Assembly: GCA_958295785.1 (NCBI GenBank)
Contig: OY282377.1
Coordinates: 4,466,896-4,530,895 of the forward strand
Direction of reading: 5' to 3'
Origin: an uncultured Latescibacterota bacterium
GTDB lineage: Bacteria; Latescibacterota; UBA2968
Length of the DNA stretch: 64,000 nt
In this document: positions 14,031 through 33,178 of the stretch, piece after piece
How the letters are laid out: each line of letters opens with the position of its first letter
Position numbering within the stretch: position 1 is the first letter of the stretch
The notes under the pieces: generated by a model
Told to the model about the DNA's origin: nothing
Databases searched by the model: none
Seen by the model: only the letters and a program-made list of their open reading frames with translations
Position numbers and translations under genes: made by a program

Positions 14031-14042
14031 GATTACCCCTAT

Positions 14043-15035: not shown

Positions 15036-15178
15036 AGTTGGTCTCCAAGTCAGCGGTAAAAGGCGAGAAGCGAGAAGCGAGAAGGCCGCCCAACCCCATC
15101 CGCCGTCGGAACAGGCCCCTGTGCTTGTCCTCGTACTCGGCGGCAGATGGATGGGGGCTGAAAGCTGAAAGCTAATTC

Positions 15179-16081: not shown

Positions 16082-16124
16082 ATTGGCCCTCCATTGAGAT
16101 GAGACGAAGGAAACAGCGGGGATA

Positions 16125-16153
16125 AATGTAACCGAACAAGCGCGAAATGTCAA
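16125..16153 (-). promoter_or_regulatory. Promoter for the C4-zinc protein
   Basis: On the minus strand TTGACA (16153-16148) and TACATT (16130-16125) are spaced by 17 bases. The predicted start near 16118 gives a leader of about 37 nt before the ATG at 16081. Confidence 0.65.
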
Positions 16154-16187
16154 CATCCAACCTACTGTTTACAAAAGATTTACAAAC

Positions 16188-16216
16188 TTGACAAACAGAG
16201 CGAATTTCGCTATATT
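16188..16216 (+). promoter_or_regulatory. Strong plus-strand promoter with no gene behind it
   Basis: TTGACA (16188-16193) and TATATT (16211-16216) are separated by exactly 17 bases. The expected start near 16223 is immediately followed by a perfect terminator hairpin, so the product would be a tiny RNA or an abortive transcript. Confidence 0.6.
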
Positions 16217-16224
16217 ACAACCAT

Positions 16225-16266
16225 CGCCGAAAAGATCACATCCGACCTTTTCGGCGTTTTTGTTTT
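16225..16266 (+). terminator. Intrinsic terminator directly after the promoter
   Basis: CGCCGAAAAG (16225-16234) pairs perfectly with CTTTTCGGCG (16247-16256) around a 12-base loop, followed by TTTTTGTTTT. It is oriented on the plus strand, yet no plus-strand gene precedes it. Confidence 0.75.
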
Positions 16267-16280
16267 CATCCGAGTCCGCG

Positions 16281-16327
16281 CCCCAAAAAACAAAGGCGCG
16301 ATTCAAAAATTTTGAACCGAGCCTTTG
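16281..16327 (-). terminator. Intrinsic terminator of the SLATT-like unit
   Basis: On the minus strand CAAAGGC pairs with GCCTTTG, with an inner TTCAAAA/TTTTGAA pairing, and TTTTTT follows. It ends transcription coming from 16437-16958. Confidence 0.75.
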
Positions 16328-16331
16328 AGGA

Positions 16332-16435
16332 TTAAGCATTCTCATCTTTTTTGGCGATTCCTTTTGCGGTGGTTGTGGCCTTGGCGGTGGTTGTGGCCTT
16401 GCTGGACTCCCACTCCGTTCCTCCAATCTTTCCAT
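16332..16435 (-). other. Possible tiny downstream reading frame, start unclear
   Basis: Right after the SLATT-like stop, the same frame stays open for 34 codons and encodes GGTEWESSKATTTAKATTTA followed by KGIAKKDENA. It stops five bases before the terminator stem. It contains an 18-base tandem repeat. No standard start exists in this frame, but one extra A in the AAA of ATGGAAAG (16435-16428) would join the ATG at 16435 to it. It may be a frameshifted small gene, a read-through tail or chance. The overlapping proline-rich frame runs through the terminator and is not preferred. Confidence 0.3.
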
Positions 16436-16436
16436 A

Positions 16437-16958
16437 TTATGCCTGTGTTGATATGCTCTTATGTGCATATCGGTCCTCCATGACTTTATACGCATCGGCG
16501 GCATGTATCTCGTTCAACTTCTGATCTTCCCGAATATCCGCGTACCCCGCGTTACCGGTCAAACTCGTAATTCTCTGCAACAGTTGTCTATTTCCCTCTA
16601 AAGCCTCCTCATTCGCAATTGTCCCATCGTCAACACTGCGCCACAATGCGTGCCATTCGCTTTCCAATTCGCTACATTGCAACCTAATCGCATGCAGGAT
16701 TGCAGCTTTTCGTCCATAATCAGAGACAAAATCCCAAGCAATAATCAGCGCGATTCCCATCCCAGAGATGAGTTGCGCGATTGGCGGCAGTGCATCTAAA
16801 AATGCGGCAATGCCACTCGTCGCTGCGGCAAAAAGCAAAACCCGCACGATGTTGTAGTTGCGTTTGTAACGGTCGGAAAGCGCGGCATAGTATCGGACGA
16901 GCCGCGTAACATCCAAGAGGTCTTGCCAAACCTCATTTCTAATTTCATCGGAAACCAT
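16437..16958 (-). CDS. SLATT-like two-TM membrane protein
   Basis: The 173-residue protein has a short N-terminal helix, two hydrophobic segments at about 41-58 and 62-80, and a long soluble C-terminal helix region. This layout resembles SLATT domain proteins, predicted membrane effectors in nucleotide-signalled defence systems, but I recognise it by architecture rather than by a diagnostic motif. It has a good Shine-Dalgarno (AGAGGTGG), its own promoter (16994-17022) and its own terminator. No nucleotidyltransferase sensor is adjacent. A generic small membrane protein is the alternative. Confidence 0.55.
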   Translation of the reverse strand: MVSDEIRNEVWQDLLDVTRLVRYYAALSDRYKRNYNIVRVLLFAAATSGIAAFLDALPPIAQLISGMGIALIIAWDFVSDYGRKAAILHAIRLQCSELESEWHALWRSVDDGTIANEEALEGNRQLLQRITSLTGNAGYADIREDQKLNEIHAADAYKVMEDRYAHKSISTQA

Positions 16959-16993
16959 ATCGCCACCTCTTTGTCATTTACGCTACCTGCTAT

Positions 16994-17022
16994 TTTGTAA
17001 GTTATGCGAACCGATCTGTCAA
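16994..17022 (-). promoter_or_regulatory. Promoter for the SLATT-like gene
   Basis: On the minus strand TTGACA (17022-17017) and TACAAA (16999-16994) are 17 bases apart. A second TTGACA overlaps just upstream, giving a direct repeat of the -35 hexamer. Confidence 0.5.
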
Positions 17023-17045
17023 TGTCAAGCGAATCTTCTATTTTT

Positions 17046-17897
17046 TCAAAACAACATGCTGATGTCCAACGCCTTCACAGAATGCGTCAGCGCGCCGATA
17101 GAAATAAAATCCACGCCGGTTTCGGCAACGGCCCGCACGCCTTCTAACGACACATTGCCCGAGGCTTCCAACTCGGGTTTTTTGCCCTTGACTTGGCGCA
17201 CCTTTTGCACGGCTTCGCGCATGTCGTGCAGGCTCATATTGTCCAGCATCACGCGATCCGCACCCAACACGAGCACCTCGTCGAGTTCGGACAGGGTCTC
17301 CACCTCCACCTCCACGGGCACGTCTCGGCCCTCAAAATCCATGCCTTTCCACACCGCCAAAAGCGCGGGGCCAATGCCATCTGCTGCTTCAATGTGATTT
17401 TCCTTGATCAACACCATATCGTACAGGCCCGCCCGATGATTCGCGCCGCCCCCTGCTGCGACTGCGTATTTGTCCAACACCCGCAACCCGGGCGCGGTCT
17501 TGCGCGTATCCAAAATTCGCGCCTTTGTTCCCCGCACTGCTGCTACAAATTGCGCGGTCATCGTTGCAATGCCCGACATGCGCTGCAAAAAATTGAGCGC
17601 GACCCGCTCGCCTGTCAACAACCCGCGTGCAGAGCCGGAGACCTCTGCCAAAATATCACCTGCGCCAACGCGGTCCCCATCTTTCACCCGCGCCGCGAAT
17701 ACTATCGCCTCGTCAATGGCTTCAAACACCCATTGCGCGACGCCCAATCCCGCGACCACACCATCTGCTTTGACAATGATTTTGGCGTCTGCGCGCTTGG
17801 TGAATGGCACGGTCCATTTCGTCGTTATATCCCCATCCCCCACATCCTCTGCCAACGCCCGCGCAATGATGGGCATCGCATTTCCTCGACTTAACAT
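17046..17897 (-). CDS. nadC: Nicotinate-nucleotide pyrophosphorylase (carboxylating)
   Basis: This 283-residue quinolinate phosphoribosyltransferase converts quinolinate and PRPP to nicotinate mononucleotide, CO2 and pyrophosphate in de novo NAD synthesis. Family motifs are present: EDVGDGDITT near the start, NFLQRMSGIAT, DTRKTAPGLR, KYAVAAGGGANHRAGLYD and the phosphate-binding end DFISIGALTHS. The ATG at 17897 is preferred; a TTG at 17918 lacks a Shine-Dalgarno. No nadA or nadB is nearby, so the pathway genes are scattered. Confidence 0.96.
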   Translation of the reverse strand: MLSRGNAMPIIARALAEDVGDGDITTKWTVPFTKRADAKIIVKADGVVAGLGVAQWVFEAIDEAIVFAARVKDGDRVGAGDILAEVSGSARGLLTGERVALNFLQRMSGIATMTAQFVAAVRGTKARILDTRKTAPGLRVLDKYAVAAGGGANHRAGLYDMVLIKENHIEAADGIGPALLAVWKGMDFEGRDVPVEVEVETLSELDEVLVLGADRVMLDNMSLHDMREAVQKVRQVKGKKPELEASGNVSLEGVRAVAETGVDFISIGALTHSVKALDISMLF

Positions 17898-18384
17898 TTC
17901 AAAAGTTCTCTTTGTCAATGGAGGTAGCCGGTGGTCATTGGCCGGTGGGTACGTGGACAGGCACGGGGGCCTGTCCCTACGGGTGATGGGACTGGGCGGC
18001 CTTCTCCCCTCTCCCTCTTATACTAAATTGATTTTCTGTTGCCCTAATGTGATGCGATATGCGACCCGCAAATGATTCCCTTGACCTTACCTAGGCATTC
18101 AGAGAAGCCATTGCAAAAATGCCATCACAAAAGACCTTCCGATAAAGCCATCGCGCACAGCGCGCAAGGCCGTCTCGCAACCCACCTCCCTCTTGAAATT
18201 CCCTTCGCAGGCCAGCGCATGTCGTCCTATTACAAAAGCGATTTGCGCTGTGCAAGCCTCTCGGCGTTTGAGAGCGGCATTTTTGAACTGCTGGGGCAGT
18301 TGTACCCCGCTCGCCTACTTTTTTTTTGTTGAAAAAAAGTAGGCCGCCGAAGGCATCAGGCGCGGGCTGACCACTGACGTTCCC
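17898..18384. other. Gene-free 487-base region of repeats
   Basis: No gene is supported. A GGACAGGCACGGGGGCCTGTCC repeat lies at about 17953-17974. An inverted copy of the 11102-11577 element occupies 18018-18345, and a GTTGTACCCCGCTCG / CTACTTTTTTTTT word set ends it. Confidence 0.55.
18018..18345. mobile_element. Second, inverted copy of the TIR element
   Basis: The left end TTATACTAAATTG...CTGTTGCCC (18018-18044) matches the right terminal repeat of the element at 11102-11577. The next 230 bases align closely with its reverse complement. The far end diverges and lacks a clear second terminal repeat. Both copies contain an open frame beginning MIPLTL, but the differences are not codon-biased. 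Confidence 0.55.
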
Positions 18385-20064
18385 CTACTCCTCCCGCTCA
18401 ACCCGCACGATCTGATACCGCCCGATTTTCCACACATAAAAATAAATCCGAACGGACTTATCCGCCCAACCGGGCCTCAGCGTCCGAATCTCGATTCCGC
18501 AATATTGCCCCTCGGGCAAATCGGTCGGGATGGGGATGGGGCCTTGCGTATCGAGATGACGGGCGACACCTCGCGCTTTGCCATCGCCATTGACAAACCG
18601 GTACGCATATCGCGTCTCTGCTGCGGTTGCCAACCGCCCCGCGATAGCCAAATCCTCAAAGTGCAATCCCCGGCTGTTCACCCAAAAGCGATCCAGGGGG
18701 TTTGCGCGCCGAAACCAGTAATTGCCCACCTTATCGCGGCGTTCTTTCAAAAGTTGAACGAGATGCTCTTCGGCCTTTTTGTCGGGCAATTGCCCCGCCT
18801 TCACAATGGCCTTCAAATCGCCATCGCCAAATGCCATCACAATTTTCGCGCCCCAATAGCCATCGCGATTTGTACACTGCTGAAACGCCGGATTGGGATA
18901 ATTAGGGGACCATCGCCCGGGCGAAAACACATCGCTTTCCAAATACCCGACAGATCGAAAGGGCATGGGACGCGCTTCTTCCCACGCCTTTCGATACAAC
19001 CCCAAGCTCAAAATGGATCGGGTAATATAGCGAACATCTACGAAATACTCATTGCCCGTCTTGGGCATTCGGGGCCTCACTGTGCTGCTGCCCAAAGTCG
19101 CGCCCATATCGATCAAATAGTGTTTGATATATTGGCGGCCCTGCTCATCTGTCACTAACAGATTCAGGGTATTGGCAGCGCGCCTGTCCACATCGTTGAT
19201 CCATGAAGAGATCGCGCGCAGGCCGCGTAGCTCCCGCCGGTGCTCGTGCAACACGCGGTCATTGGGATCGTCTTTGCGCCGCCCGTGAAAGTCAAAAACC
19301 CCGACCGGAACCCCCGGCAACAACGCGCTCGCCATACACCGGACGCGCCCGTCGGCCTGCTTTTGAATAGAATCCAATACATCTTGCAAGTCTGCCTCTG
19401 TCATGGGCCTGCGGCCGCCCTCCTCATCGGATACCTGCGCCTCAGAACCGATGGTGAGCCACTCGGGGAAGAAAAAAACAACGGAATTTCGCGGCACATG
19501 ATACCCCGCCGCGTACAAAATTTTTGTCGAAACCACCTCGGCAGCGGTCGCCAGGCCATCGTACCCTTTGGGGTCAAACTTCAAAAAGTAAATTGCCCCT
19601 TTCGCATCCCGCACCGTGAACCCGGGCGCCAACCCCTCAAATTTTCCCGATATAACTTCCCACGAACCGCTCGTATCCGGTTGTGCATGTCCCGGCCCTT
19701 GGGCCAATGCAGAGGCATCCATACGCCTCATGAAATGCCGATTGGTGTACCACGATGAATTGGGCACTTCATCCAAAACATTGATATTGTCTGCCTGACG
19801 CCGCGGCGCGACATTCAGCATGTTGCCAACCCGCCGCGCGCTCCATCCCAAATCCAGCACCTTGCCCATCTGGTAAAAAAAGGTGTGATCGACAATGTCC
19901 CAAATGAGATTCTCCTCAATCTCTTTGGGCTTGGGAATGCTCCGATTATCGGGGTCAAACCACTTGATCGGCGCTGTCGATAACGAGCGATCATCCGCGT
20001 CAACCGCAACGGCGATACACGTCACCAGCGCAACTATCCAGAGTTTGTTCAAGAGTGTTTTCAT
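18385..20064 (-). CDS. Secreted atypical kinase-like protein
   Basis: I cannot name this 559-residue protein. It starts with a clear signal peptide (residues 1-23), so it should be exported. The centre looks like an atypical (HipA/PI3K/FAM20-like) kinase fold. SGKFEGLAPGF at 139-149 suggests a nucleotide loop, Lys162 in YFLKFDP a phosphate-binding lysine and Glu176 in TAAEVV its partner. WINDVDRRAANTL at 288-300 has Asp and Asn catalytic candidates, and HYLIDMG with Asp319 is a DFG-like metal site. Kinase activity is inference from this order of residues. It closes a minus-strand cluster with nucleotide-carrier-like proteins and a barrel; the upstream gap holds a repeat. Confidence 0.6.
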   Translation of the reverse strand: MKTLLNKLWIVALVTCIAVAVDADDRSLSTAPIKWFDPDNRSIPKPKEIEENLIWDIVDHTFFYQMGKVLDLGWSARRVGNMLNVAPRRQADNINVLDEVPNSSWYTNRHFMRRMDASALAQGPGHAQPDTSGSWEVISGKFEGLAPGFTVRDAKGAIYFLKFDPKGYDGLATAAEVVSTKILYAAGYHVPRNSVVFFFPEWLTIGSEAQVSDEEGGRRPMTEADLQDVLDSIQKQADGRVRCMASALLPGVPVGVFDFHGRRKDDPNDRVLHEHRRELRGLRAISSWINDVDRRAANTLNLLVTDEQGRQYIKHYLIDMGATLGSSTVRPRMPKTGNEYFVDVRYITRSILSLGLYRKAWEEARPMPFRSVGYLESDVFSPGRWSPNYPNPAFQQCTNRDGYWGAKIVMAFGDGDLKAIVKAGQLPDKKAEEHLVQLLKERRDKVGNYWFRRANPLDRFWVNSRGLHFEDLAIAGRLATAAETRYAYRFVNGDGKARGVARHLDTQGPIPIPTDLPEGQYCGIEIRTLRPGWADKSVRIYFYVWKIGRYQIVRVEREE

Positions 20065-20399
20065 GGTTGCCAGCCGCCTGTTGTCAGTTGCCTGATTCTA
20101 AGAAGCCATCTTAAAATTATCGGGGCCTATCTCCCTAACCCCGTTACTCGCTCCGCTCGTTGTAGGCGGACGCCTGTGCCTACAAGGAAGGGGGGAATCA
20201 AGACCTCCCTACGAGAAAAGACGGGGGCACCTGCGATTACCTTTCATCCGAGCCGTGTCCATCTGTGGTTGCTTCTTGTATCTTTGGGCGAGCACGGGGA
20301 CATCGCCCCTACACACACTGCGCGTCTTTTGTGGCTAAACTTCCATCTCGCCTTTTGAGTGGCTGGACGGGGACTGATCACGGGTCACGGGATCATAGT
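20065..20399. repeat. Repeat-filled gap upstream of the kinase-like gene
   Basis: No gene is supported in this 335-base stretch. It contains the second copy of the AGAAGCC-TCTTAAAATTATCGGG repeat (20101 to about 20215) and a CTTGTATCTTTGGGCGAGCA-type GC-rich repeat (about 20274-20315). The kinase-like gene probably starts transcription within or beyond these. Confidence 0.55.
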
Positions 20400-22685
20400 T
20401 TATCCCGCTTTGTCCATTGACAGGGGTAAGCGAATGGTGAAGGTCGTGCCCTTTCCGACCTCGCTCTCTGCGCGGATGCTGCCCTTGTGGTCTTGAATGA
20501 TCTGATAACAGATCGACAGGCCCAATCCGGTTCCCACGCCCACGCCTTTGGTCGTAAAACCGGGATCGAACACGCGCGCCAGATTTTCTCGTGGAATGCC
20601 TTTGCCAGTGTCTGAAATCGCAATTTCGATCTCATTGTCTATCAGGCGAGTCGATATCCCAATTTTGCCCTTTCCCTCAATGGCCTGCTCTGCATTGACC
20701 AACACATTGAGAAACACCTGATTTAATCGACTTGGAAAACAAATCATGGTGGGAATATCGCCGTATTCCCGCACCACTTCAATGCGATTCTTGAAATCGT
20801 GACGAACCAGCGTCAGGGTCGTTTCAATGCCCTCGTGGAGATTGGCCTCTTTCATCTCCGCTTCATCCAGACGTGCAAAACTTCGCAGGCTGTGTACAAT
20901 CTCCGTCACGCGCTCTGTCCCCGTTGCGATCACGCGATTTGCGTCCTGAATGACCTGCAAGGCCGCGCGTATGGCGCGATTATTTTTTAACAGGTCGCGG
21001 TATTTCGTCTCCAAAACGCCTTTGAGCCGATCAACGGCCCGCATCAAGGTCTCGTGCATCCTGTTGATGTCGCCGACCGGTTGATTGATTTCATGGGCAA
21101 TCCCCGTGACCAGATTGCCCAACGAGGCCATCTTATCGGACTGCACCAATTTGACCTGTATCTCCTGGAGTTCCCAGTTTTTCTGCTGAAGCGACTCGTA
21201 AATCAATAGCTGTTCTCGCGCCTCTTCCAACGCCAATTCTTTCATCGCATTGTCTCTTTCGAGCTGTCGCTGTTTTTTTCGGTCTTCCTCTGCGCGTTCT
21301 TCAAGCCTTCGCGCTTCGCGTTCCCGTTCCCGTTCCCGCTCCGCCAATTCCTCGGCCTGCGCGAGTTGTGCTCTCAAATTCTGATAGGTGCGCGCAAAAA
21401 TTTGGGCGAGATAAATCGACATCGCCAACATCAGCGCGAGCGCGCTGTAAATATACGGAAAAAAGAGCACCAAACTGTCGATGATGCCCAGTGCCACGAG
21501 TCCCTGGTACATATTGCTTATGACGAAAATCAACACCCCAAACCCCACAATGCGTACGCCGGGGCGCTTTTGGAAAAGCGCGCGAAAAACATGGGCCAGG
21601 GCTTCGGGATAGGTCATCAACAAAAACACGTAATAAATCTCGACATCCAAGGTCCACACAAAAAGACCGAGCGCGCAACCAATGGCGGCAAGCACCTTAA
21701 AAGACCTGTTGAACGCGCCTTGAAAAAAGTGACAGATGAACCAGAGTTGAAACACACCCGTGGAAACCAAAGAGAACTTAAACAGCGCGTCCAAATAAAA
21801 AATCGCGTCCAAATCGCGCGTCAACGCCCCCCATATTGGCAAAAAGATCAGGCCCGTAACACTCATTGTAAAAAGGGCGCAATAGAGGTATTCGCGATTG
21901 CCCGGCGCAAACAAAAAAAGTGTGAAATGCGCCAGCGCAATGCCCAAAGGGATCGCGAGAATTACTTTGTGCCCGGCAATAGATCGCCTGATCGGCGCCT
22001 GCAAAGCCGCGCTGGATTCGCGCTCTGACAACATCAGCACAAAGCCCTTGGGGCTGTACAAATTGGAAAAACACACCGCGAGCACATGCTCGGGGCCTTC
22101 GCCCAAACGCACGGGCACATAAGACATTGCATTGGCAATCGCGTTTCGCTCTCGGGCGGTCGCGCTTTTGCCCACAGTCGCAAATTCCCCGATGCGTTTG
22201 CCATCCAGATAAATTTGACTGGTGCCAATTTGCCCAACGACCAAAATGAGGGGCTTGTGCGCCAGTTCTTTCGCGGTCTGAAACCGAAACCGAAACCAGC
22301 CCTTGCCGCCCCAATGCACTTGCTGCCAACCCTTCAAATCGACCTCGTCTGACCAGTAATCCCAAGTGCTATCATCCCATTCGGGCAAAGCCCAGGCCGC
22401 ATTATCCCCGGCCTTAAACTTCCATCCAGCGTCAAAAACATACCCGTTTTTCAGAAATTCCGAATGGTATTGTCGCAACGCCTCCAAGTCGATAACGGCC
22501 TGGTCGTCTGCACATTCGACCGGCGCGGACAACCACGCGCTGAAAAGCAAAAGTGCAAGAAGCTGTCTTAAAACGAAAGATGACCCCTCCCCGCAACGCG
22601 GAGGGGAGACGTAATTCCCTCCTTCTTCGCGGGAAGTAGGGGGGCCGATAAAACCAAAACAGCTTCTAAAAAACAAATATTTCAT
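20400..22685 (-). CDS. 7TMR-DISM sensor histidine kinase (first)
   Basis: The 761-residue membrane kinase has a signal peptide, a periplasmic jelly-roll sensor (about 80-190, with GKGWFRFRF and YLDGKRIG), seven hydrophobic segments, an RE-rich coiled coil, a DHp domain with His531 in GIAHEINQP, and an ATPase domain with NVLVNAEQAIEG, DTGKGIP and GVGTGLGLS. It should autophosphorylate and pass phosphate to a receiver, possibly the one at 25164. The ATG is 3 bases after the stop of the paralogue, so translation is coupled. Codons 7 to about 43 coincide with a 110-base TIR element (22558-22667) inserted in frame within the signal peptide region; removing it leaves a standard signal peptide. Confidence 0.93.
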   Translation of the reverse strand: MKYLFFRSCFGFIGPPTSREEGGNYVSPPRCGEGSSFVLRQLLALLLFSAWLSAPVECADDQAVIDLEALRQYHSEFLKNGYVFDAGWKFKAGDNAAWALPEWDDSTWDYWSDEVDLKGWQQVHWGGKGWFRFRFQTAKELAHKPLILVVGQIGTSQIYLDGKRIGEFATVGKSATARERNAIANAMSYVPVRLGEGPEHVLAVCFSNLYSPKGFVLMLSERESSAALQAPIRRSIAGHKVILAIPLGIALAHFTLFLFAPGNREYLYCALFTMSVTGLIFLPIWGALTRDLDAIFYLDALFKFSLVSTGVFQLWFICHFFQGAFNRSFKVLAAIGCALGLFVWTLDVEIYYVFLLMTYPEALAHVFRALFQKRPGVRIVGFGVLIFVISNMYQGLVALGIIDSLVLFFPYIYSALALMLAMSIYLAQIFARTYQNLRAQLAQAEELAEREREREREARRLEERAEEDRKKQRQLERDNAMKELALEEAREQLLIYESLQQKNWELQEIQVKLVQSDKMASLGNLVTGIAHEINQPVGDINRMHETLMRAVDRLKGVLETKYRDLLKNNRAIRAALQVIQDANRVIATGTERVTEIVHSLRSFARLDEAEMKEANLHEGIETTLTLVRHDFKNRIEVVREYGDIPTMICFPSRLNQVFLNVLVNAEQAIEGKGKIGISTRLIDNEIEIAISDTGKGIPRENLARVFDPGFTTKGVGVGTGLGLSICYQIIQDHKGSIRAESEVGKGTTFTIRLPLSMDKAG
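22558..22667. mobile_element. 110-bp TIR element inside the signal-peptide codons
   Basis: The ends AGAAGCTGT (22558-22566) and ACAGCTTCT (22659-22667) are perfect inverted repeats. The interior has a GC-rich hairpin (CCCCTCC-GCAACGC-GGAGGGG). A related element sits at the same place in the barrel gene (31946-32043). No target duplication could be defined. Confidence 0.6.
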
Positions 22686-22688
22686 CGC

Positions 22689-24983
22689 TCAATCCATCTG
22701 CGCCTGCGTGGGTTGGTCAATCGGCAACACAACCGTGACTGTCGTGCCCTTTCCGATCTCGCTCTCAACGAGAACGCGCCCATTGTGTTCTTCCGCAATT
22801 TGGCGGCACATCGACAGGCCCAACGCGCCTTTTCCATCGCTTTTGGTCGTAAATTCCAAATCAAAAATTTTGGGCAACACCTCTTTGGCAATCCCTTTTC
22901 CCGTGTCCGCAATCGCAACAGACACTTCGCCGTTCTCTGCGCGCGTTTGAATGGTAATGCGCCCGGTGCCCTCAATGGCCTGCACTGCATTGACCAGCAA
23001 ATTGAGGAAAATTTGATTGAGCCGCCCCGGAAAACAAGTCACCTGTGGGAGTTGGCCGTAATCCCTTACCAACGCGATTCGGTCTTCCAATTTGTGGCGC
23101 ACAAGCGCGAGCGTGCTCTCGATCCCTTCGTGGATATCCACCTGTTTCCATTCCGCTTCATCTAAACGCGCAAAATTCCGAAGGCTCAAAACGAGTTCTC
23201 GCACGCGCTCTGTGCTGGCCGTGATAACGCGATTCGCCTCGCCTATCTCTTGCAGGGATGCCCGAATCACATTGCGATTTTTGTCCCCATCGTCATCAGG
23301 GGTCACATCTTCTTTGAACAGGGCCACCACCCGTTTCAAGGTCATGTGCATTCTGCCGCGATTTTTGTCCCTATCATCTGCCAGATAGGGCGCCATTTCC
23401 CCTTCGAGATTTGCCACCGCGCGTTTCAGAGTATCGTGCATGCTGTTAATCGCCCCCACCGGCGTGTTGATCTCGTGCGCGATTCCCGCGACCAAATTCC
23501 CGAGTGCCGCCATCTTTTCGGTTTGAACCAACTGCATCTGCCTTTCCTCCAATCTCCGGTTGGCTGCTTTTAATTTTTCTGCCATGCGCTGCCGCTTGTT
23601 GGCTATTTCCAATTCTCTCTCTAAAATTTTCCATTCTTCTTCAGCGCGTTCGCGTTCCCGTTCGGCTTCCCGCGAGCGGCGTTTTTGTTCTGCACCGCGC
23701 GTTTGTTGCGCCACCGCACGTCTTGTTAAATTCCGAATCTCAACAGTCTGTTTTTTTATTTGCCGGTTTGTGCGATCAAATGTATAGGCCAAAAATGCCG
23801 ACATACTCGCGACCAGGCCGAGAAAGCCATAGATGTACACAAAAGATATATCGCGCGGCAAAACACCCAGTTCGGTCAACAGTTGATAAGCCCACGCCAA
23901 AATAAACACCCCAATACCCGCGCCGATGATTCGCGCCCCCGGCTTTTTTTTCCAAATCGCGATCAAACATATACGCAACAATTCGCAAAATCCGATCAGC
24001 CCAATCAAAAACACAATGGGCACTGGCATGGCCCAAGCCCCCAAACACAGAATCCCGCTCGAAATGGAAACGGCGCGCCAGTTGCGCGGCAAGCCGCCGA
24101 AAAAAGCAGTATAGGAAAATTTCAGCCCAAACAGCACTGTGAGAATGAGTATGGTTTTGCCCACGCCCAATAAAATGACCAGAATTGTGGGTCGAAAGAT
24201 CACTTCAATGGGAATGAAAATGAGGAGGGAAATGCAAGTGGCAAACGCCACATAAGAGAGACTGCCGCGCAATTTGGCGCGAAACAAATACATCAAAAAG
24301 TGAACCAGGGCAAACGTGAGGGACACGCCGGCCAACAACTGGAGCAGGGTTTGGTCGCGCACATGCCGATCGCGCTGCTGGTGGGCGTCGATATAGTCGG
24401 CAAGCCCTAGGCCCCACCATGTCGGCAACCCGAGAAAGTGATAGTCCATCGCGCGAAAATTTGAATAGCGAACAGCCAAAACGCATTTGGACTCTGTCAG
24501 CGGCGGCAACAAAAACAAAAACGGCAAATCGGGCAACACGGTCTCTGGCACTTCACCCCGGCCATTTTGCCCAACGCGCCCGTGGGAAAACAACCGCTTG
24601 CCATTCAAAAACACATCCAACGCGCCCGAATGGTACAACAGCAGGGCCAAATCCCGGTGCAACACAGACGCATCAAATTCGAGGTGCAGCCGAAACCAAC
24701 CCGTGCCAGCCCAAGACATCCCATCGGGCATATTCACATACCCATACGCCTGGGTCAAAGGCGGCAATTTTGCCCAGTGGCGATCATCAAAATCAGGAGA
24801 TGCCCACGCAGGATCATCTCCCTCATGATATACCCATCCGGTCAACTTGAGCACCTGATAGCCCCAAAAACTCGGGTCCGCATCTCGTTTTGGCTTGAGG
24901 TCATCCGCCATCACCGTCATTTGGGCCAAACCGACCCCTGGCAACAACCAAAGCAAAACCGCCAAACGCATTGCAAATCGCAT
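22689..24983 (-). CDS. 7TMR-DISM sensor histidine kinase (second)
   Basis: The 764-residue protein repeats the architecture of its downstream neighbour: signal peptide, jelly-roll sensor (TGWFRLHLEF, FLNGKRLF), seven membrane segments, charged coiled coil, DHp with His503 in GIAHEINTP, and ATPase domain with NLLVNAVQAIEG, DTGKGIA and GKGALGLSM. A 30-residue tandem duplication lies just after the phosphorylated helix: MHDTLKRAVA at about 515 and MHMTLKRVVA at about 545, each unit ending D-x-DKNR. The start is the ATG at 24983 behind GGAGGAGG. The two kinases arose by gene duplication and may form homo- or heterodimers. Confidence 0.93.
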   Translation of the reverse strand: MRFAMRLAVLLWLLPGVGLAQMTVMADDLKPKRDADPSFWGYQVLKLTGWVYHEGDDPAWASPDFDDRHWAKLPPLTQAYGYVNMPDGMSWAGTGWFRLHLEFDASVLHRDLALLLYHSGALDVFLNGKRLFSHGRVGQNGRGEVPETVLPDLPFLFLLPPLTESKCVLAVRYSNFRAMDYHFLGLPTWWGLGLADYIDAHQQRDRHVRDQTLLQLLAGVSLTFALVHFLMYLFRAKLRGSLSYVAFATCISLLIFIPIEVIFRPTILVILLGVGKTILILTVLFGLKFSYTAFFGGLPRNWRAVSISSGILCLGAWAMPVPIVFLIGLIGFCELLRICLIAIWKKKPGARIIGAGIGVFILAWAYQLLTELGVLPRDISFVYIYGFLGLVASMSAFLAYTFDRTNRQIKKQTVEIRNLTRRAVAQQTRGAEQKRRSREAERERERAEEEWKILERELEIANKRQRMAEKLKAANRRLEERQMQLVQTEKMAALGNLVAGIAHEINTPVGAINSMHDTLKRAVANLEGEMAPYLADDRDKNRGRMHMTLKRVVALFKEDVTPDDDGDKNRNVIRASLQEIGEANRVITASTERVRELVLSLRNFARLDEAEWKQVDIHEGIESTLALVRHKLEDRIALVRDYGQLPQVTCFPGRLNQIFLNLLVNAVQAIEGTGRITIQTRAENGEVSVAIADTGKGIAKEVLPKIFDLEFTTKSDGKGALGLSMCRQIAEEHNGRVLVESEIGKGTTVTVVLPIDQPTQAQMD

Positions 24984-25163
24984 GAACACCTCCTCCCACC
25001 CAACCGCGCTCCCAAGTGGTCAGTGGTCAGTTCCCGCTCGTCCATCCCCAAAACCCCACGCACTTCGATGACCTGCTCGCGCAGTTGTACTCCGTGCCGC
25101 TTGTTGTAGGCTGTGTCTGTCCGTTTTGTCGTGTACTGTGGAACGGGGGTTAAGAAAGTAAGG

Positions 25164-25637
25164 TTACACAAAGGTCTTGAGCACCTCTTGCTGGATCGCT
25201 TGCAACTCGCTATACGCCCGATTGATCTGCTCTATTTTGTTTTCGAGTTGCTCCATCAGCAGCCTTTTTTCCAAGCCATTGCGAATGATAATATTCAAAT
25301 CCTCGTTGTCCCACGGCTTCTCGATATATTGATAGATGCCGATATCGTTAATCGCCTTGATCGCATTTTGCTTGTCTGCATAGCCCGTCAAAATGATGCG
25401 CGTCACTTCTGGCCTGAGCTTTTTGACCTCGCCCAAAAACTGAATGCCGTCCATGTCGGGCATCAGATAGTCGGAAATGACGAGATCGACCTCGTTTTCT
25501 TGAATAAAATCGAGCGCGGCTCTCGGATGCGAAAAAGTCTTCACCTCGTAATTGGTCTCGAGCGTCAAAAAGGAATGGATGCTGATCAAAACCATTTCTT
25601 CATCATCGACAATCACGATATTTCTTCTCTTATCCAT
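25164..25637 (-). CDS. Response regulator: receiver with coiled-coil tail
   Basis: The 157-residue protein is a single receiver domain followed by a helical tail (about 118-157). Phosphoacceptor Asp56 is in ISDYLMPD, the acidic pair is Asp11-Asp12, and Thr84 and Lys107 complete the site. There is no DNA-binding or enzymatic output domain, so it probably acts through protein contacts or is one half of a larger relay. RpfG-type receivers are similar in sequence. The start is the ATG at 25637 behind GGGGGATGG. It lies between a cyclic-nucleotide-binding gene and two histidine kinases, its likely partners. Confidence 0.93.
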   Translation of the reverse strand: MDKRRNIVIVDDEEMVLISIHSFLTLETNYEVKTFSHPRAALDFIQENEVDLVISDYLMPDMDGIQFLGEVKKLRPEVTRIILTGYADKQNAIKAINDIGIYQYIEKPWDNEDLNIIIRNGLEKRLLMEQLENKIEQINRAYSELQAIQQEVLKTFV

Positions 25638-25666
25638 GCCATCCCCCAAAACCAAAAAAGCCTCAG

Positions 25667-26089
25667 TTATTGAACGCGCTCTACCAAACCGCGCAGATGC
25701 TTGGTCATAGCGCGTAAAACGCCCTGCGTAATCTCCACATAATCCGCCAACAAATGAATAAAATTATCGCGCTCAATACACAACACCCGGCTCGTTTCGA
25801 GAACAGTCGCGGTCACCACGCGCGGCTCGTCATCAAACAGTGCCCATGTGCCACAAACATCATTTGGCCCCGCAATGGTCACATCGAGATCGCCGCGGTG
25901 CAACCGAACCCGGCCCTCCAAAATGAGATACATAGCGAGGGGTGGGTCCGCCTCTTTATAGAGCACATCGCCCGTGCGGCAAGCGATCTCTTCTGCAATA
26001 ACGGCCAAATGCGCCAAGTGTTGCGTGGAGACTTCGGAAAAGACATCCACATTTTGCAAGGCCATCACTTTTTCAATCACGGTCAACAT
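25667..26089 (-). CDS. Free-standing cyclic-nucleotide-binding domain protein
   Basis: The 140-residue protein is a cNMP-binding (CAP-like) domain with no DNA-binding helix-turn-helix. The beta-roll is visible as VDVFSEVSTQHL, GDVLYKEADPPLAMYLILEGRVRLHRG and VCGTWALFDDEPRVVTATVLETSRVLCI. The phosphate-binding cassette arginine (R109 or so, in DDEPRVVTA) suggests a ligand could bind. The ATG at 26089 is chosen because the frame to 26149 translates spacer. It lies directly after the HEAT-tailed carrier; similar carriers elsewhere may carry such a domain fused, which would make it a detached regulatory subunit. Confidence 0.88.
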   Translation of the reverse strand: MLTVIEKVMALQNVDVFSEVSTQHLAHLAVIAEEIACRTGDVLYKEADPPLAMYLILEGRVRLHRGDLDVTIAGPNDVCGTWALFDDEPRVVTATVLETSRVLCIERDNFIHLLADYVEITQGVLRAMTKHLRGLVERVQ

Positions 26090-26179
26090 AACTATATCCA
26101 ATTTACACAAAAAGCACAAAGCATGTAGGCCCCTGTGCCCGCCCACCAAGTGGTCAGTCGTCAGTCCCCGCTCACCCCC

Positions 26180-28849
26180 TCAAAGCCGCTCAACCACGCG
26201 CTCCGCAGTCTCGGTGATCAGCGGGTGTGCGTGGGTGCGGCACGCCTGCACGCGGGCAATCAGCGCGGCTGAATCGCCTGCATCCACGCAATTGAGCGCA
26301 CAGGCTTTGAGCCATAACTCATTGCCATCGATCAAATACAACATCCCATCTTCGCACGTCCGCAGGTCGTCGCGGAAAAAATTCCGCCCATAAGACAGGG
26401 CATCTTCCACCGCATCGGCATCGATCAGCACAGGCAAAATCGCTTTCCACTCGTGGTGCCGGTCGAGCACATTGTCCAAAAACTCCAGCGCGTTTGCGCG
26501 CTTTGTCTTGTCAGAACTGACAATGCCCAAATACGCGCGGTACATATCCCCGAGCGAATACTGAAGCCCCAGCAGCAAAAAAATTTGCTCCAGCGTCCCA
26601 TCGCGGTATTCCCGCAATGCCTGCTTGAGCAACGCAAAGGCTTTGCCCCTCGCGCTTTCAAAAATCTGCAACAACCGCGTCATCTCGTAATACACCCCGG
26701 CCTGCGCCATCAAAATGCGATCCACGCGATCCTCGTCGCAATGGAGACGCGAATCTGAGACGCGCAATTTGCACAACGCCTGAATGAGCGCGAGGCTATC
26801 GCCGGAACTCGCATTTTTCAACTTGTCCAACAGAAAATCGACAGCCCTTTGCACGGGGATCTCGGCCGCGACCCGGGGGATTTGCAACCGCAGGCGCGGC
26901 GAAGAATCCCACGCGGTTTTGAGCGCGGGCAAGGCAGCTTCCCCCATTTTTGCGAGGGCATTGCGTGCGTCAATGCGATAGCGCGGCTCTGCCAAGCGGT
27001 CGAGCAACCAAGCCGTGTACTCCGCGCTGCGATAGTCAAAACTGCGAATTACTTCCCTGACCACCTCGGCATCTGCATCGCGCCTGAGTTCCAAAAGAAA
27101 CGGTGCTAATTCTTTCATGTTGCCGATCACCCGAACCAGCAACACGCGCTCTTCGGGAACGCCCGAACCGAGGACGGATTCTACAAACGCCTTGTCGATC
27201 AACCCCTTTTCACGGGCCTTGCCATACCGAGAAATATACCCCAATGCGGTCGTGCGGATTTTTGGATCGCCATCTTGCAAATCATGCCGCAACGCCTCCA
27301 AATCCGCAGACAGAGTTTGTCGGCGCAGAAAATGCAGGGCCTCCACGCGCACATCCGTGTTTTCATCGCGCAACAGCCCGCGCACCAGGGGTTGCAAATC
27401 CACAGGCAGGGAAGGGCGCATCGCCAACAATGCCAACCGCTGCACGTCGGCATCTGCGTGTTGAATCAACGGCGCGATTTCGCTGGTTAAGTCCTCATCC
27501 GCTGTCCCCAAAAGTTCCAGCGCGTACGCCACATGCCGGGGATTTTCGGATTTCAACGCCTGAACGAGCACCGCAATCACGGCCCCATCGAGTTGTACGC
27601 GAAAATCGTCGATCTGAATTTCCCTGCGGTCGAGCGCGACTCGAAAGGCATCGACATAAGCCCTTCGCAACCTGACCAAATTCCAAAGCCACACCGCGAC
27701 GAGCCCCAAAGAGAAAAACGAAAGATGGGGATATAAAACACCGAACCCGGCCTGCAAAATGAGGACGACCAACGCGCCCAATCCCGTGGCCAAATTGTCA
27801 ACCGTCGTGTCGATAAAAACTTTTGACCGCTTTTTGAGTTCAGAAGGCACCGGCAGAAACAGGACTTCAATCGCTGCCTTGTGGATGGAGTGGCGAAAAC
27901 CAACATCGCCGACCTTCACCGCGACCCCGCCCCACAACCCGGCCATCAAAAGCACGCCCCACGCGCCGAGTGCCATGCTCACTGGCAAAAAAAACAGCGC
28001 GCAACCAACCCCAAATCGCTTGAGTATCCACGGGGTCATGAGCAATTGGAACACGAAGGAAAACCCATTGAGATAGGCAAAAAAACGACCGAAAAAAGCG
28101 GTCTTTTCGTCCTTGGTTTCAAAAGCCGCATTGACGATCTCATTAAACTGTATGTCTGCCACAACCGCGACAACCGCGACCAACGCGCCCATGCCCGCGA
28201 TGCGCTTGAGCAGTGCCGAAGACATCACCGCTTGCAGCGCGCCCCCTTCTGTTGACGCTTTCACAGACAGCGTCCCCACAGGCACCGTGCAAACCAACCC
28301 CGTGCTCGCCGCGATCAACCCCGCGCTGATCAGCAACAAATTTTCCGTGCCCAGCCAATTAGCGGCCCATCCCGTGAACAACCCCCCCACCACGGAGCCG
28401 GCAATGCCGCCCGTGCCGATAAACCCAAAAAGCCGTCGCGCTTCTCGCGCATCAAAGACGGCATTTGCCAGCAGCCAGAGCAGAGAAACCGCGAGCACCC
28501 CATAGAGATTGACCCATACGTAAAACAGGTAGTAAATCCAACCGCCGGAAACCGTGAACAAATAGCGAAAAATCGCCAAGTGCGCGATCAGCGCGATAAA
28601 TGTGCCCGGTATCAGGCGATTGAGACGCATACTGCCCATCAATTTGGAATACAAACTCGAAATGCCCCCGCCAATCAGCGCGACGAGAATCAAAACATAA
28701 GGCAATTGTGCAATGCCCAATTGATCCAAAAACAGGGCATTGCGGGCGGGCTTTAAGACATAGATAGAAGACAGGATGAGCGTGTAGGCCATCACAAGTG
28801 GCATCAGACGCCGCAACTCGGTCGGCCGGATATCGATGATTCTGTTCAT
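26180..28849 (-). CDS. ATP/ADP-translocase-like carrier with HEAT-repeat tail
   Basis: The 889-residue protein has about twelve membrane segments in residues 1-420, resembling the nucleotide (ATP/ADP, NTP/NDP) translocase family, with RRLMPLVMAYTLILSSIYVLKPARNALF at its start being typical (basic residues beside the first helix). Residues from about 440 on are soluble HEAT-like helical repeats. Classic members exchange nucleotides in plastids and intracellular bacteria; in free-living bacteria the cargo is unknown. A smaller homologue is the upstream neighbour at 29128-30444. The ATG at 28849 or the one at 28864 could be used; no strong Shine-Dalgarno decides. Confidence 0.82.
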   Translation of the reverse strand: MNRIIDIRPTELRRLMPLVMAYTLILSSIYVLKPARNALFLDQLGIAQLPYVLILVALIGGGISSLYSKLMGSMRLNRLIPGTFIALIAHLAIFRYLFTVSGGWIYYLFYVWVNLYGVLAVSLLWLLANAVFDAREARRLFGFIGTGGIAGSVVGGLFTGWAANWLGTENLLLISAGLIAASTGLVCTVPVGTLSVKASTEGGALQAVMSSALLKRIAGMGALVAVVAVVADIQFNEIVNAAFETKDEKTAFFGRFFAYLNGFSFVFQLLMTPWILKRFGVGCALFFLPVSMALGAWGVLLMAGLWGGVAVKVGDVGFRHSIHKAAIEVLFLPVPSELKKRSKVFIDTTVDNLATGLGALVVLILQAGFGVLYPHLSFFSLGLVAVWLWNLVRLRRAYVDAFRVALDRREIQIDDFRVQLDGAVIAVLVQALKSENPRHVAYALELLGTADEDLTSEIAPLIQHADADVQRLALLAMRPSLPVDLQPLVRGLLRDENTDVRVEALHFLRRQTLSADLEALRHDLQDGDPKIRTTALGYISRYGKAREKGLIDKAFVESVLGSGVPEERVLLVRVIGNMKELAPFLLELRRDADAEVVREVIRSFDYRSAEYTAWLLDRLAEPRYRIDARNALAKMGEAALPALKTAWDSSPRLRLQIPRVAAEIPVQRAVDFLLDKLKNASSGDSLALIQALCKLRVSDSRLHCDEDRVDRILMAQAGVYYEMTRLLQIFESARGKAFALLKQALREYRDGTLEQIFLLLGLQYSLGDMYRAYLGIVSSDKTKRANALEFLDNVLDRHHEWKAILPVLIDADAVEDALSYGRNFFRDDLRTCEDGMLYLIDGNELWLKACALNCVDAGDSAALIARVQACRTHAHPLITETAERVVERL

Positions 28850-29127
28850 AAAAAAAATGTGCAATCACTTATTGGTATTTCATCCCCGCAACGGGGAGGG
28901 AAGATGTGAAAAGCTATCGGCTTTCGGCAATCAGGTCTCAGCTATCTTCCCCTGCCATTCGCCCAAAGCGATGTATGGCCTGACCACTTGTTTTGCTGAC
29001 TGCTGATACGCTGATAGCTAAGATACAAGACCTTGTGACACAATAAAGCATTTTTCAGCAAAATTGCGTAACCAGTTACTTTTTTTACATAGGAAGGGAG
29101 ATTATAGGAGGATGGGTCCAGAAAATT
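28850..29127. repeat. Gap with mosaic repeats
   Basis: This 278-base gap separates the two carrier genes. It contains a CCCCGCAACGGGGAGGG piece like the interior of the 22558 element and AGCTATCGGC / GCTGATAGCTAAG words that recur in other gaps. No gene or clear promoter was found. Confidence 0.4.
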
Positions 29128-30444
29128 TTATCGAGATTCCAAACGCTGGAAAGAACGCCCCACATACCGCACGGCCAAAAGCCAAACCGCGAGCAACCCC
29201 GCGCTGATCAACGACAACCACCGCATGTGCCCAAAGCCCGTGAGCACCAGTGTAATGCCCAGACTTAGGCCAACGGCCAATGCTTTGGCAAACCGCTGTA
29301 CAAACATGTCGATAAAGGCTTTGGCCTTGTACTTTTCGTCGCGTGTCGTCGGCACGTAAAGCACCTCTTTTGCCGATTGGTTGATCGAATAGCTAAACCC
29401 ATTGTCACACGTATTCAGCGCGCTGCCAACCCACAATACCGGAAAACACAGAAAACCCATCGATCCGATCATGGCCGCAACGGGCAAAAACATCAACGCT
29501 ATGCCGACCCCAAACCGCGTCATCACAAAACTAGTCAGCGCGATTTGCACAAAAAACGCAAACCGATTGGTGAACGCAAAAACATCTGCAAATTGCTTTC
29601 CTATTGCATCGCCCTCGAGATGGTGGGCAATCGTTGCTGAAAACTGGAAATCCATAATGGTCGAGACCATTTCATAAATGCCGACAATCGCCACAATCGA
29701 CAAAAGATATTTCGACCCAAAGACCAAGCGGGCGCCTTCTAGTGCTGGATTGTCGTTCGCCAATTCCTCTTTGGATTCCGATTCGACCGCAGGCGCGGGT
29801 GGCAAATGCCGCGCCACCAATCGCCCGGCCGCACTTGCAAAGGCGACGATCACAACGCCAATGCCCAAGCAAACCCACATCCAGTCGGACGCGGTCAGGT
29901 CATCGATCATCGCACGCAAAACTTCCGACCCAAACCATCCCCCACTCACGCCGCCGAGACCGATCAGCCCATACAGGCGTTTGGCCTCATCCGGGGCAAC
30001 GCTATCGTTCAAAAAGGCAAAAAAGGTCGCCACCATCAGCGTGCTGTACAAATCGCCAAACAAATAAAATGTCCAAACCGTCCAGTCGCCCGCAGCGGCG
30101 AGCATCGCGGCGTAGATCACATAGCAAACGCCAAAAAACGCGGAAAAGATATAGGTCAACTGCTGTCGCTGAAATGACCGCACGAGCAGGGTAAAAATCG
30201 AAACAGCCAGAAAAGCGACGACCATATTCAAGACTTTGGCGATCAATTCGGCCTGCGCCGCAGTCATATACAGGCCAAAAGCGCGGAAACCCTCCGCATC
30301 GTAAAACGCGATAAAAAGCCCTTTTTTTAGCGGCTTCAGAATCCAGAAACTCGCAATCACGAGAAAAAAATAGCCGAACATCAACACCGCGAGGGGGGCT
30401 TCAGATCGGCGAATATCCAAGATATGTTTGATCGGGTTTGACAT
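29128..30444 (-). CDS. ATP/ADP-translocase-like carrier, short form
   Basis: The 438-residue protein has about twelve membrane segments and matches the nucleotide translocase-like branch of the major facilitator group. Features shared with the HEAT-tailed paralogue include the early FWILKPLKKGLF motif, the RLYGLIGLGGVSGGWFGS loop and the late SINQSAKEVLYVPTTRDEKYKAKAFID segment. It lacks the HEAT tail. Carriers of this family can exchange ATP for ADP, but bacterial relatives outside pathogens are uncharacterised. It lies 78 bases after the barrel gene. Confidence 0.82.
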   Translation of the reverse strand: MSNPIKHILDIRRSEAPLAVLMFGYFFLVIASFWILKPLKKGLFIAFYDAEGFRAFGLYMTAAQAELIAKVLNMVVAFLAVSIFTLLVRSFQRQQLTYIFSAFFGVCYVIYAAMLAAAGDWTVWTFYLFGDLYSTLMVATFFAFLNDSVAPDEAKRLYGLIGLGGVSGGWFGSEVLRAMIDDLTASDWMWVCLGIGVVIVAFASAAGRLVARHLPPAPAVESESKEELANDNPALEGARLVFGSKYLLSIVAIVGIYEMVSTIMDFQFSATIAHHLEGDAIGKQFADVFAFTNRFAFFVQIALTSFVMTRFGVGIALMFLPVAAMIGSMGFLCFPVLWVGSALNTCDNGFSYSINQSAKEVLYVPTTRDEKYKAKAFIDMFVQRFAKALAVGLSLGITLVLTGFGHMRWLSLISAGLLAVWLLAVRYVGRSFQRLESR

Positions 30445-30522
30445 GATTCAGTTCATTTTTTGGAATAGTACTGAATGAGGACTCCTCCCTCGGTCCTTCC
30501 CCGCAACTCGGGCAGTGCCTCA

Positions 30523-32067
30523 TCAAAACGCCTGACGCATCGTAAATCCGATGAGCAGACGCGCGGCAGTGCTGTGCCCAATTTTGATCTTGCCGAGCAA
30601 GCCGAGTTCCGTGCGAAATGAAATGCCGCCGCCATAAGAAGAATGGAAACCGCCCCATCTCAAATCGCCAAAATGATCGAAAATCTGGCCCTCGTCCCAA
30701 AACAAAAACGCATTCCAATAATCCCAGATCGGATACCGATACTCCGCGTTGAACAGCAAAGCACCCTGCCCGCGAAAATGACCGCGTCTGTATCCGCGTG
30801 CCGATAGGTTGCCCCCTAGATGAATCAACTCGGTATAGGGCACAAAGCCATCCCCCAATGACCGCACCTTATCCAACTGGGCGTGCAGAACCAAAATTCG
30901 ATTCTTCCAGAACAACGTGACATAACGGGCCGCTTCTGCACGTATCTGATAAAACCGAATGCGATCCGGCCCTGTCGCCACGTCCGCTTTCAACGCGATA
31001 AATCCACCGCGCTCGGGATACCCGGTATCGCGTGCAAAGTAAAACTGATCGCCAAATTGTGCGACCACGCGGCCGGGAAATCGGTAATCAACCGGCAGAG
31101 AAAGTTGGCGTGTCGGCCGCTTAAAATCGCGGTCGTCATACACCACCTGAAACCCAAAGCGGTAAAATGTGAACGCCGCACCCAATCCCTTGAGCAAGCG
31201 CGCTTGGGGCGAGGATCCCGGATCGGAAAGCGGTTGCAATCCGCCCATAACCGGCCTGAAATCGCGCCGCACAACCCCCAGCGTGCCCACCAGTTTGACC
31301 TGCGGCACATAAGACGCGATCTCGCCCTTTTTCAACCGCCACTCAACAGCAGTTTCCACATCGATCTTTTTGAGTTCAAAAAGCCTTGCGTCATTGTTTT
31401 TTACCGCGCCGTTTATCGTGGCACCTCTGTTTTTCGTTTGCAAAAACCCCCCCTGAATTTTCCAAACGAGCCCCTTGCCCAACACATCGGGCGCAACGTA
31501 CAACCCTTCGACAAATTGTCCTTTCCTCCCCGAATAAATATAGTGCGCCGCGATTGTATTCTCGCGCCCGAACCAATTGGTTTGAAAAAGACGCACCCCA
31601 ACCCCTGTACCCGTTTCACCTCCCAATTGCCCATGCGGAAAAAGACCAAACGTACTCCCTTTATTGGTGAACAATTTATAGTAGCGAACCCATAGCTTTG
31701 CGTGCTCTGCATAAACGGCAAATTTCCCCAACGGATTGACCACCATCAGCAAGGCATACCGGGGCAAGCCCAACAAATGATTCACGGGTGTCACTTTTGT
31801 AACAGAGACATCCGTACTGTCGGCAACCTCGCCCTGCGATATATCGTAGGGATCGTGCTTATACAGGCTATCAGCCTCAGCCGACGAAGCAGAGGCAGGC
31901 GCGTCTTTGGACATGCACAACAGGCCAAAGACAAAAAGGAAGGTAAGAAGTTGTCTTAAAACGCAGCGGGGAGACCTGATCCCCCCTTCCCCGTAGGAAG
32001 AGGGGTTAGAGGGGTAGATCAAAAAAAAATTAAAACAACCTCTAAATGGGCGCATCACGGTTCTCAT
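30523..32067 (-). CDS. Omp85/BamA-like surface antigen barrel
   Basis: The 514-residue outer-membrane protein has a signal peptide, a plug or linker region to about residue 100 and a beta-barrel with alternating hydrophobic strands. The LIHLGGNLSARGYRRGHFRGQG segment is the L6-loop RGY-type motif of the Omp85 (bacterial surface antigen) superfamily, and the chain ends in Phe, as outer-membrane barrels do. Only a short N-terminal region precedes the barrel, so it has no room for five POTRA domains. Residues 9 to about 41 are encoded by a 98-base TIR element. It is the first gene of the signalling cluster, downstream of the promoter at 32218-32247. Confidence 0.88.
   Translation of the reverse strand: MRTVMRPFRGCFNFFLIYPSNPSSYGEGGIRSPRCVLRQLLTFLFVFGLLCMSKDAPASASSAEADSLYKHDPYDISQGEVADSTDVSVTKVTPVNHLLGLPRYALLMVVNPLGKFAVYAEHAKLWVRYYKLFTNKGSTFGLFPHGQLGGETGTGVGVRLFQTNWFGRENTIAAHYIYSGRKGQFVEGLYVAPDVLGKGLVWKIQGGFLQTKNRGATINGAVKNNDARLFELKKIDVETAVEWRLKKGEIASYVPQVKLVGTLGVVRRDFRPVMGGLQPLSDPGSSPQARLLKGLGAAFTFYRFGFQVVYDDRDFKRPTRQLSLPVDYRFPGRVVAQFGDQFYFARDTGYPERGGFIALKADVATGPDRIRFYQIRAEAARYVTLFWKNRILVLHAQLDKVRSLGDGFVPYTELIHLGGNLSARGYRRGHFRGQGALLFNAEYRYPIWDYWNAFLFWDEGQIFDHFGDLRWGGFHSSYGGGISFRTELGLLGKIKIGHSTAARLLIGFTMRQAF
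31946..32043. mobile_element. 98-bp TIR element inside the barrel gene signal region
   Basis: AGAAGTTGT (31946-31954) and ACAACCTCT (32035-32043) are inverted repeats with one mismatch. The interior resembles that of the 22558-22667 element (CCCCTC...GGGGAAGGGGGG, TTTTAAGACAACTTCTT at one end), and both have the same orientation relative to the host gene. Confidence 0.6.
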
Positions 32068-32174: not shown

Positions 32175-32217
32175 TTCTTCGCGTGCGTCGGAATGACGGA
32201 TACCCACTTTGAAAAAA

Positions 32218-32247
32218 AATATAACACCACAACCTAGACGATGTCAA
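32218..32247 (-). promoter_or_regulatory. Promoter of the barrel/carrier cluster
   Basis: On the minus strand TTGACA (32247-32242) and TATATT (32223-32218) are 18 bases apart. Transcription would start near 32211, about 145 nt before the ATG at 32067. Confidence 0.65.
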
Positions 32248-32973: not shown

Positions 32974-33178
32974 CAGACGCGAATAGACGAATCGGCGAGT
33001 CAATAAATCGTAGGGACAGGCCCCTGTGCCTGTCCTCGCAATCAGCGGTCAGCGATCAGTCTCTATCCTACCCCCTAACCCGCCGCACTTTGATGAACTG
33101 CTATCGCAGTTGTACCCCGTTCCACATAGAGGTCACATCAAATCGGTTGCCTCAGCATGACAGGCTGTTATATCACAA

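Follow-up and report, generated by a model that had tools for sequence, protein, structure and literature searches.

A cluster of eight minus-strand genes in a 64,000-nucleotide stretch (contig OY282377.1, positions 4,466,896 to 4,530,895; hereafter the window) of the closed, 5.66-Mb genome of an uncultured Latescibacterota bacterium probably encodes an envelope phosphorylation system. We put at about 0.6 the probability that an ATP/ADP exchanger here feeds an outer-membrane-associated periplasmic kinase, which in many relatives would be opposed by a phosphatase. The candidate kinase, KIN, recurs across phyla beside an Omp85-superfamily barrel, BAR, and carriers of the NTT family, and these carriers accompany KIN copies whose catalytic residues are intact. 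The original prediction, made from the DNA letters, had brought the eight same-strand genes together at positions 18385-32067, and all eight open reading frames are present there:

BAR, 30523-32067, minus strand: Omp85-superfamily protein with a C-terminal barrel, partner of KIN (Pfam Omp85, PF01103, 1.5e-12)
TLC (type A), 29128-30444, minus strand: NTT-family carrier (Pfam TLC ATP/ADP transporter, 2e-19)
TLCH, 26180-28864, minus strand: NTT domain with HEAT repeats (Pfam TLC, 2e-10; HEAT_2)
CNMP, 25667-26149, minus strand: lone cyclic-nucleotide-binding domain (Pfam cNMP_binding, 7e-16)
REC, 25164-25655, minus strand: single-domain response regulator (Pfam Response_reg, 1.4e-26)
HK1, 22689-24989, minus strand: 7TMR-DISM sensor histidine kinase (HATPase_c, 2.8e-25; HisKA, 9e-7; 7TMR-DISM_7TM, 4e-6, below cut-off)
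HK2, 20400-22685, minus strand: 7TMR-DISM sensor histidine kinase, paralogue of HK1 (HATPase_c, 1.3e-25; 7TMR-DISM, 1e-7)
KIN, 18385-20064, minus strand: exported protein of predicted kinase fold, Fam20C-like (K162, E176, D293, N298 and D319; predicted fold)

A scan of named genomes gave a set of 54 loci with KIN homologues in about ten phyla, with titles naming Latescibacterota, Calditrichota, KSB1, Bacteroidota/Balneolaceae/Rhodothermales, Gemmatimonadota, Krumholzibacteria, Eisenbacteria, Elusimicrobia, Neomarinimicrobiota, Acidobacteria and Myxococcota. BAR lies immediately upstream of KIN in at least 43 of the 47 loci with a readable flank, and two further adjacencies missed by the script were seen by eye. 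An NTT gene is located within 10 kb of KIN in 23 of the 54 loci, compared to about 0.6 expected on the assumption of 3 NTT genes per 5 Mb. A phosphoesterase gene and a CNMP protein occur near KIN in 11 and 9 loci, respectively. The cluster recurs far more often than expected by chance, and the homologues are not scattered: for kinase, barrel and carriers, the earlier proposal that these parts form one system finds its linkage across phyla. The commonest order elsewhere is BAR-KIN-TLC-TLCH-CNMP together with REC and HK, from which the window differs by having KIN at the far end. One locus (L032) contains two BAR-KIN pairs, one of which has NTT genes next to it.

KIN belongs to no Pfam or NCBIfam family, and alignments of its sequence against the PDB returned nothing meaningful. 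Its AlphaFold2 model (alignment of 52; pLDDT 93.2, pTM 0.94) gave eight Foldseek matches in the PDB with E up to 1e-3, all of them Fam20C or Fam20A chains at TM-scores of 0.23-0.39. Since no sequence homology to Fam20 was detectable in the Pfam and PDB sequence searches, we do not file KIN as a member of that family. In the model, the N-lobe sheet has K162 in its third strand; D293 and N298 come after a helix and before two strands, and D319 comes after those strands, an order that is found in the catalytic loop and metal site of a kinase. Among 52 homologues, K162 is conserved in 46, D293 in 49, N298 in 46 and D319 in 46; the pattern of catalytic competence (β3 Lys, catalytic-loop Asp and Asn, metal Asp) is present in most, and a degenerate subset exists. 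Export is supported by a Sec-type signal sequence at the N-terminus of KIN and by a lipobox-like cysteine, which a script detected in 35 of the 54 homologues with a readable N-terminus. Taken as modelled, KIN is thus supported as an exported protein of kinase fold, in agreement with the exported, kinase-like product first described at 18385. Some of the Myxococcota homologues (L065, L066, L068-L071) lack most of the catalytic residues.

Kinase folds also carry out other chemistry, as in SelO and SidJ, and KIN, while still fed by NTT carriers, might transfer AMP, glutamylate or act on a non-protein substrate such as a glycan. Its most invariant stretch, DDPNDRV-H-HRRELRG, falls outside the usual kinase motifs and would suit such an activity, as would the precedent of Fam20B, a Fam20 enzyme that phosphorylates a sugar (PMC5865150). 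We nevertheless regard this alternative as unlikely, because the K-D-N-D set and the loop order fit a phosphotransferase and because a phosphoesterase gene recurs beside KIN in the loci counted above.

The distribution of the carriers follows the state of KIN. Among 196 genomes of the class of G070 (which has Rhodothermales and Balneolaceae members), with an NTT threshold of E 1e-20, KIN was found in 34, NTT in 35 and both in 27 (Fisher 8e-20), and all 20 genomes with a TLC of type A also carry KIN. An NTT gene is present in 27 of the 28 genomes with canonical KIN, no more than 6 kb away in 24 of the 28; the catalytic residues could be read in 26 of these, the gene of G250 being split by a frame change. 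A second kind of copy, KIN-II, has lost K162, E176, D293 and N298 in the full-length reading, with BAR still adjoining, and apparently represents a pseudokinase lineage. None of the six genomes with KIN-II only has an NTT gene. Six genomes carry both kinds, and in every one of them NTT is found no more than 1 kb from the canonical copy and never next to KIN-II. Pooled over groups, between which the carrier thresholds vary somewhat, NTT accompanies 55 of 60 intact KIN compared to 0 of 7 degenerate ones (Fisher 9e-7), and in Latescibacterota all five genomes with a type A TLC have KIN (p 5e-5). As the genomes are related, these p-values overstate independence and are guides only, which counts against the reading that they favour. 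Even so read, the counts support the view that the carriers track the catalytic residues of KIN, as far as sequence can tell. The KIN-II loci L163-L170, L191 and L192, from the same class, have no carriers nearby.

Both window carriers, which the original prediction had likened to ATP/ADP translocases, belong to the NTT family, as judged by Pfam PF03219 above cut-off and by a match to solved NTTs. The TLC profile matches AtNTT1 (9j3j, 3e-23) and 9j3n (5e-22), which we take to be Chlamydia Npt1 (record name, ADP,ATP carrier protein 1), so that TLC aligns with nucleotide carriers and not with a non-nucleotide family. At the positions of AtNTT1 K155, E245, E385 and K527, the first of which was set via the Npt1 motif RDTKD, TLC has the conservative set K40, D131, D265 and K387, all invariant in nine homologues. 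The corresponding residues of TLCH and its homologues are R, N/S/G, D and T/Q/R, with an Arg at the K155 position and no equivalents of E245 and K527. The predicted likeness thus holds for both carriers at the level of the family, and only for TLC at the charged positions known from AtNTT1, mutants of which at K155, E245 and K527 are impaired (PMC3306366). Of the two, TLC is therefore the likelier ATP/ADP exchanger; TLCH may act on a different substrate or serve in regulation. An NTT-HEAT gene followed by a gene for a cyclic-nucleotide-binding domain (cNBD) was reported in 2017 without a function, in a paper whose main text does not contain the word "kinase" (PMC5381601).

The NTT carriers described so far serve parasites and plastids in the import or exchange of energy, and the role in free-living bacteria is open (PMC5381601). 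Given that NTTs characterised from intracellular parasites take in ATP (PMC5381601), and that a phosphatase is present in some relatives, the carriers could instead take up scavenged or host nucleotides, with KIN and the phosphatase processing them or sensing extracellular ATP. This appears very improbable: most of the searched genomes with KIN measure 2-11 Mb, which sets them apart from reduced intracellular parasites, and import leaves unexplained why carriers are absent where the kinase residues have decayed.

The phosphatase side of the proposed phosphorylation system comes from relatives. No PF00149 domain was found by Pfam in the window BAR, for which a POTRA domain was likewise not matched, and the best candidate for a phosphoesterase partner elsewhere in the window genome is not close (26 bits). 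In L047, a 1192-residue protein (15422-18991) joins phosphoesterase, kinase-like and Omp85 parts at the same locus as BAR-KIN-TLC-TLCH-CNMP; in L023, from the window's genus, a 908-residue kinase-barrel protein (14001-16709) is encoded downstream of BAR-KIN. Long fusion versions occur in 16 of 60 genomes of the order of G078 (G078 counted). The kinase region of the fusion, modelled at pLDDT 78, matches the folds of CtkA, CotH and then Fam20C. Because the partners are fused in some genomes and adjacent in others, we argue that kinase, barrel and phosphatase act together. To judge by the triple fusion of L047, a kinase-fold domain may also lie hidden in some of the published Omp85 'Metallo' proteins; the 2014 survey catalogued PF00149-Omp85 proteins, treated PF00149 as a protease and left a kinase unmentioned (PMC4104836). 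The enzyme domain of PlpD remains periplasmic (PMC11116518), which fits ATP supplied from the inner membrane.

Several findings weigh against an envelope phosphorylation system of this make-up. The two-component genes, which the original prediction had included, were found again at only a few loci (an orthologous HK at 7 of 54, REC at 4 of 54), and that part of the one-system proposal carries over to few of them. The Myxococcota loci with an intact KIN have no adjacent NTT gene. The Foldseek TM-scores for the Fam20 chains are low (0.23-0.41), and comparison of the KIN profile with that of the barrel-fused kinase domain is not significant (hhalign probability 5.5 percent), so that the kinship of the two is argued only from fold, motif order and a shared C-terminal helical RRD segment. 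NTT-family members beyond the characterised clade may have other substrates. Finally, three congeners of the window genome (G003, G007 and G008) have BAR-KIN with intact or nearly intact motifs and only a weak carrier match; G014, too, has a carrier match that is only weak.

The weak carrier match is common to nearly all congeners, with or without KIN. One of the three congeners with BAR-KIN has D319N, and all three have Asp instead of Gly at 321. In each of them BAR-KIN adjoins a kinase-Omp85 fusion, which is found in 10 of 10 congeners (G001-G010) and not in the window genome. As regards a recent move of the cluster, synteny between the window and three congeners stops at about 32314, and BAR-KIN is at another place in G008; a rearrangement of the cluster region is therefore likely, as read from gene order. 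A weak TLC-like open reading frame of about 424-442 aa is kept in G001-G008 and G010 (for example L086) regardless of KIN.

BAR-KIN without strong carriers in these congeners, together with its standing as the constant core that persists after loss of the catalytic residues, would suit a pair devoted to outer-membrane biogenesis or lipoprotein handling, in which KIN is mainly structural and the carriers are present for another reason, for example a shared stress regulon. We consider this improbable, because the carriers accompany intact and not degenerate copies, even within one genome.

For the remaining parts of the window cluster, Pfam agrees with the barrel, the lone cyclic-nucleotide-binding domain, the lone receiver and the two 7TMR-DISM histidine kinases first described: 7TMR-DISM, HisKA and HATPase matches were found in both HK1 and HK2, some of them below the Pfam cut-off. 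The phospho-acceptor His, HATPase and receiver features of a two-component system are all present in HK1, HK2 and REC. From KIN to BAR the intergenic gaps are 335, 3, 174, 11, 30, 263 and 78 bp, four of the seven being short (3-78 bp). A consensus scan placed one further feature 5' of BAR:

promoter-like site, 32218-32247, minus strand: sigma-70-like near-consensus site, TTGACA-18-TATATT, 11 of 12 (consensus scan only)

This site is near position 32211, from which co-transcription had been envisaged; sigma-70-like sites over the whole region are not more numerous than in shuffled sequence. Since the gaps are mostly short and the promoter-like site precedes BAR, a single transcript for the cluster is plausible. 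Around 22560-22700, HK2 as annotated begins in a stretch shared with a short dispersed repeat that has 38 more partial matches in the genome, and the true start may therefore be downstream; the N-terminus of BAR has a similar look in translation. Between greA and rplQ, near 33090-33123, lies a core of about 34 bp of which congener genomes contain many copies. When plasmids were searched with the ribosomal-protein region, nothing matched.

It is commonly assumed that the periplasm contains no ATP, and an ATP-using periplasmic enzyme therefore needs a supply. In the envelope phosphorylation system that we propose, KIN, a predicted lipoprotein in most relatives, would leave the cytoplasm through Sec and act together with BAR as an atypical Fam20/CotH/HipA-like kinase, presumably on the periplasmic side of the outer membrane rather than at the surface. 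TLC in the inner membrane would swap cytoplasmic ATP for the ADP made by KIN, an exchange that would supply KIN at no net cost in nucleotide. TLCH, with its HEAT repeats and separate cyclic-nucleotide-binding partner, would be a regulatory or second carrier, and the 7TMR-DISM histidine kinases and lone receiver may govern expression or activity. The reverse reaction would be catalysed in many relatives by a calcineurin-like phosphatase lipoprotein or by the phosphatase-kinase-barrel fusion. The target of KIN is possibly a protein or a glycan. For the broader claim that about ten phyla possess a dedicated extracytoplasmic kinase pathway, with an exchanger exporting ATP to the periplasm, a Fam20-like kinase and an opposing phosphatase, we see the odds as even.

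We know of no CotH or CtkA/HipA-like kinases with Omp85 barrels or NTT carriers; these bacterial proteins share an atypical kinase fold and are the top matches of the barrel-fused kinase domain. The Fam20 kinases of the secretory pathway (Fam20C, Fam20A and Fam20B), of which Fam20C and Fam20A are secreted kinases from the Golgi of animals, resemble KIN in being its best fold matches in the PDB, in their extracytoplasmic location and in the pattern of Lys, catalytic-loop Asp and metal Asp, and like KIN they would depend on ATP in a non-cytosolic compartment. KIN differs in having no detectable sequence similarity to them, in being bacterial, usually a lipoprotein and partnered by an Omp85 barrel, and in its low TM-scores and extra domains that are left unaccounted for. 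TLC and TLCH belong by sequence with the NTT carriers, including NTT-HEAT, whose arrangement with a cNBD was already described (PMC5381601). The 'Metallo' proteins combine PF00149 with a barrel (PMC4104836), as does the triple fusion near KIN, which differs by a kinase-fold domain between the two and by the existence of a split form. PlpD-type patatin-Omp85 proteins couple an enzyme domain to an Omp85 barrel, as do the kinase-barrel proteins, but PlpD is a phospholipase and not a kinase, and has a POTRA domain (PMC11116518). A search of the literature on bacterial Fam20-like or periplasmic kinases and ATP export found no such system described, consistent with the original prediction, which knew of none.

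If the proposal is true, bacteria would possess a widespread envelope phosphorylation system with its own ATP supply. Some of the orphan NTT carriers in free-living bacteria, which have had no assigned function (PMC5381601), would gain a testable role, and the uncharacterised PF00149-Omp85 proteins (PMC4104836) a kinase-fold domain. The system would also constitute a bacterial counterpart of the Fam20-type secreted kinases, with a logic comparable to that of the animal secretory pathway.

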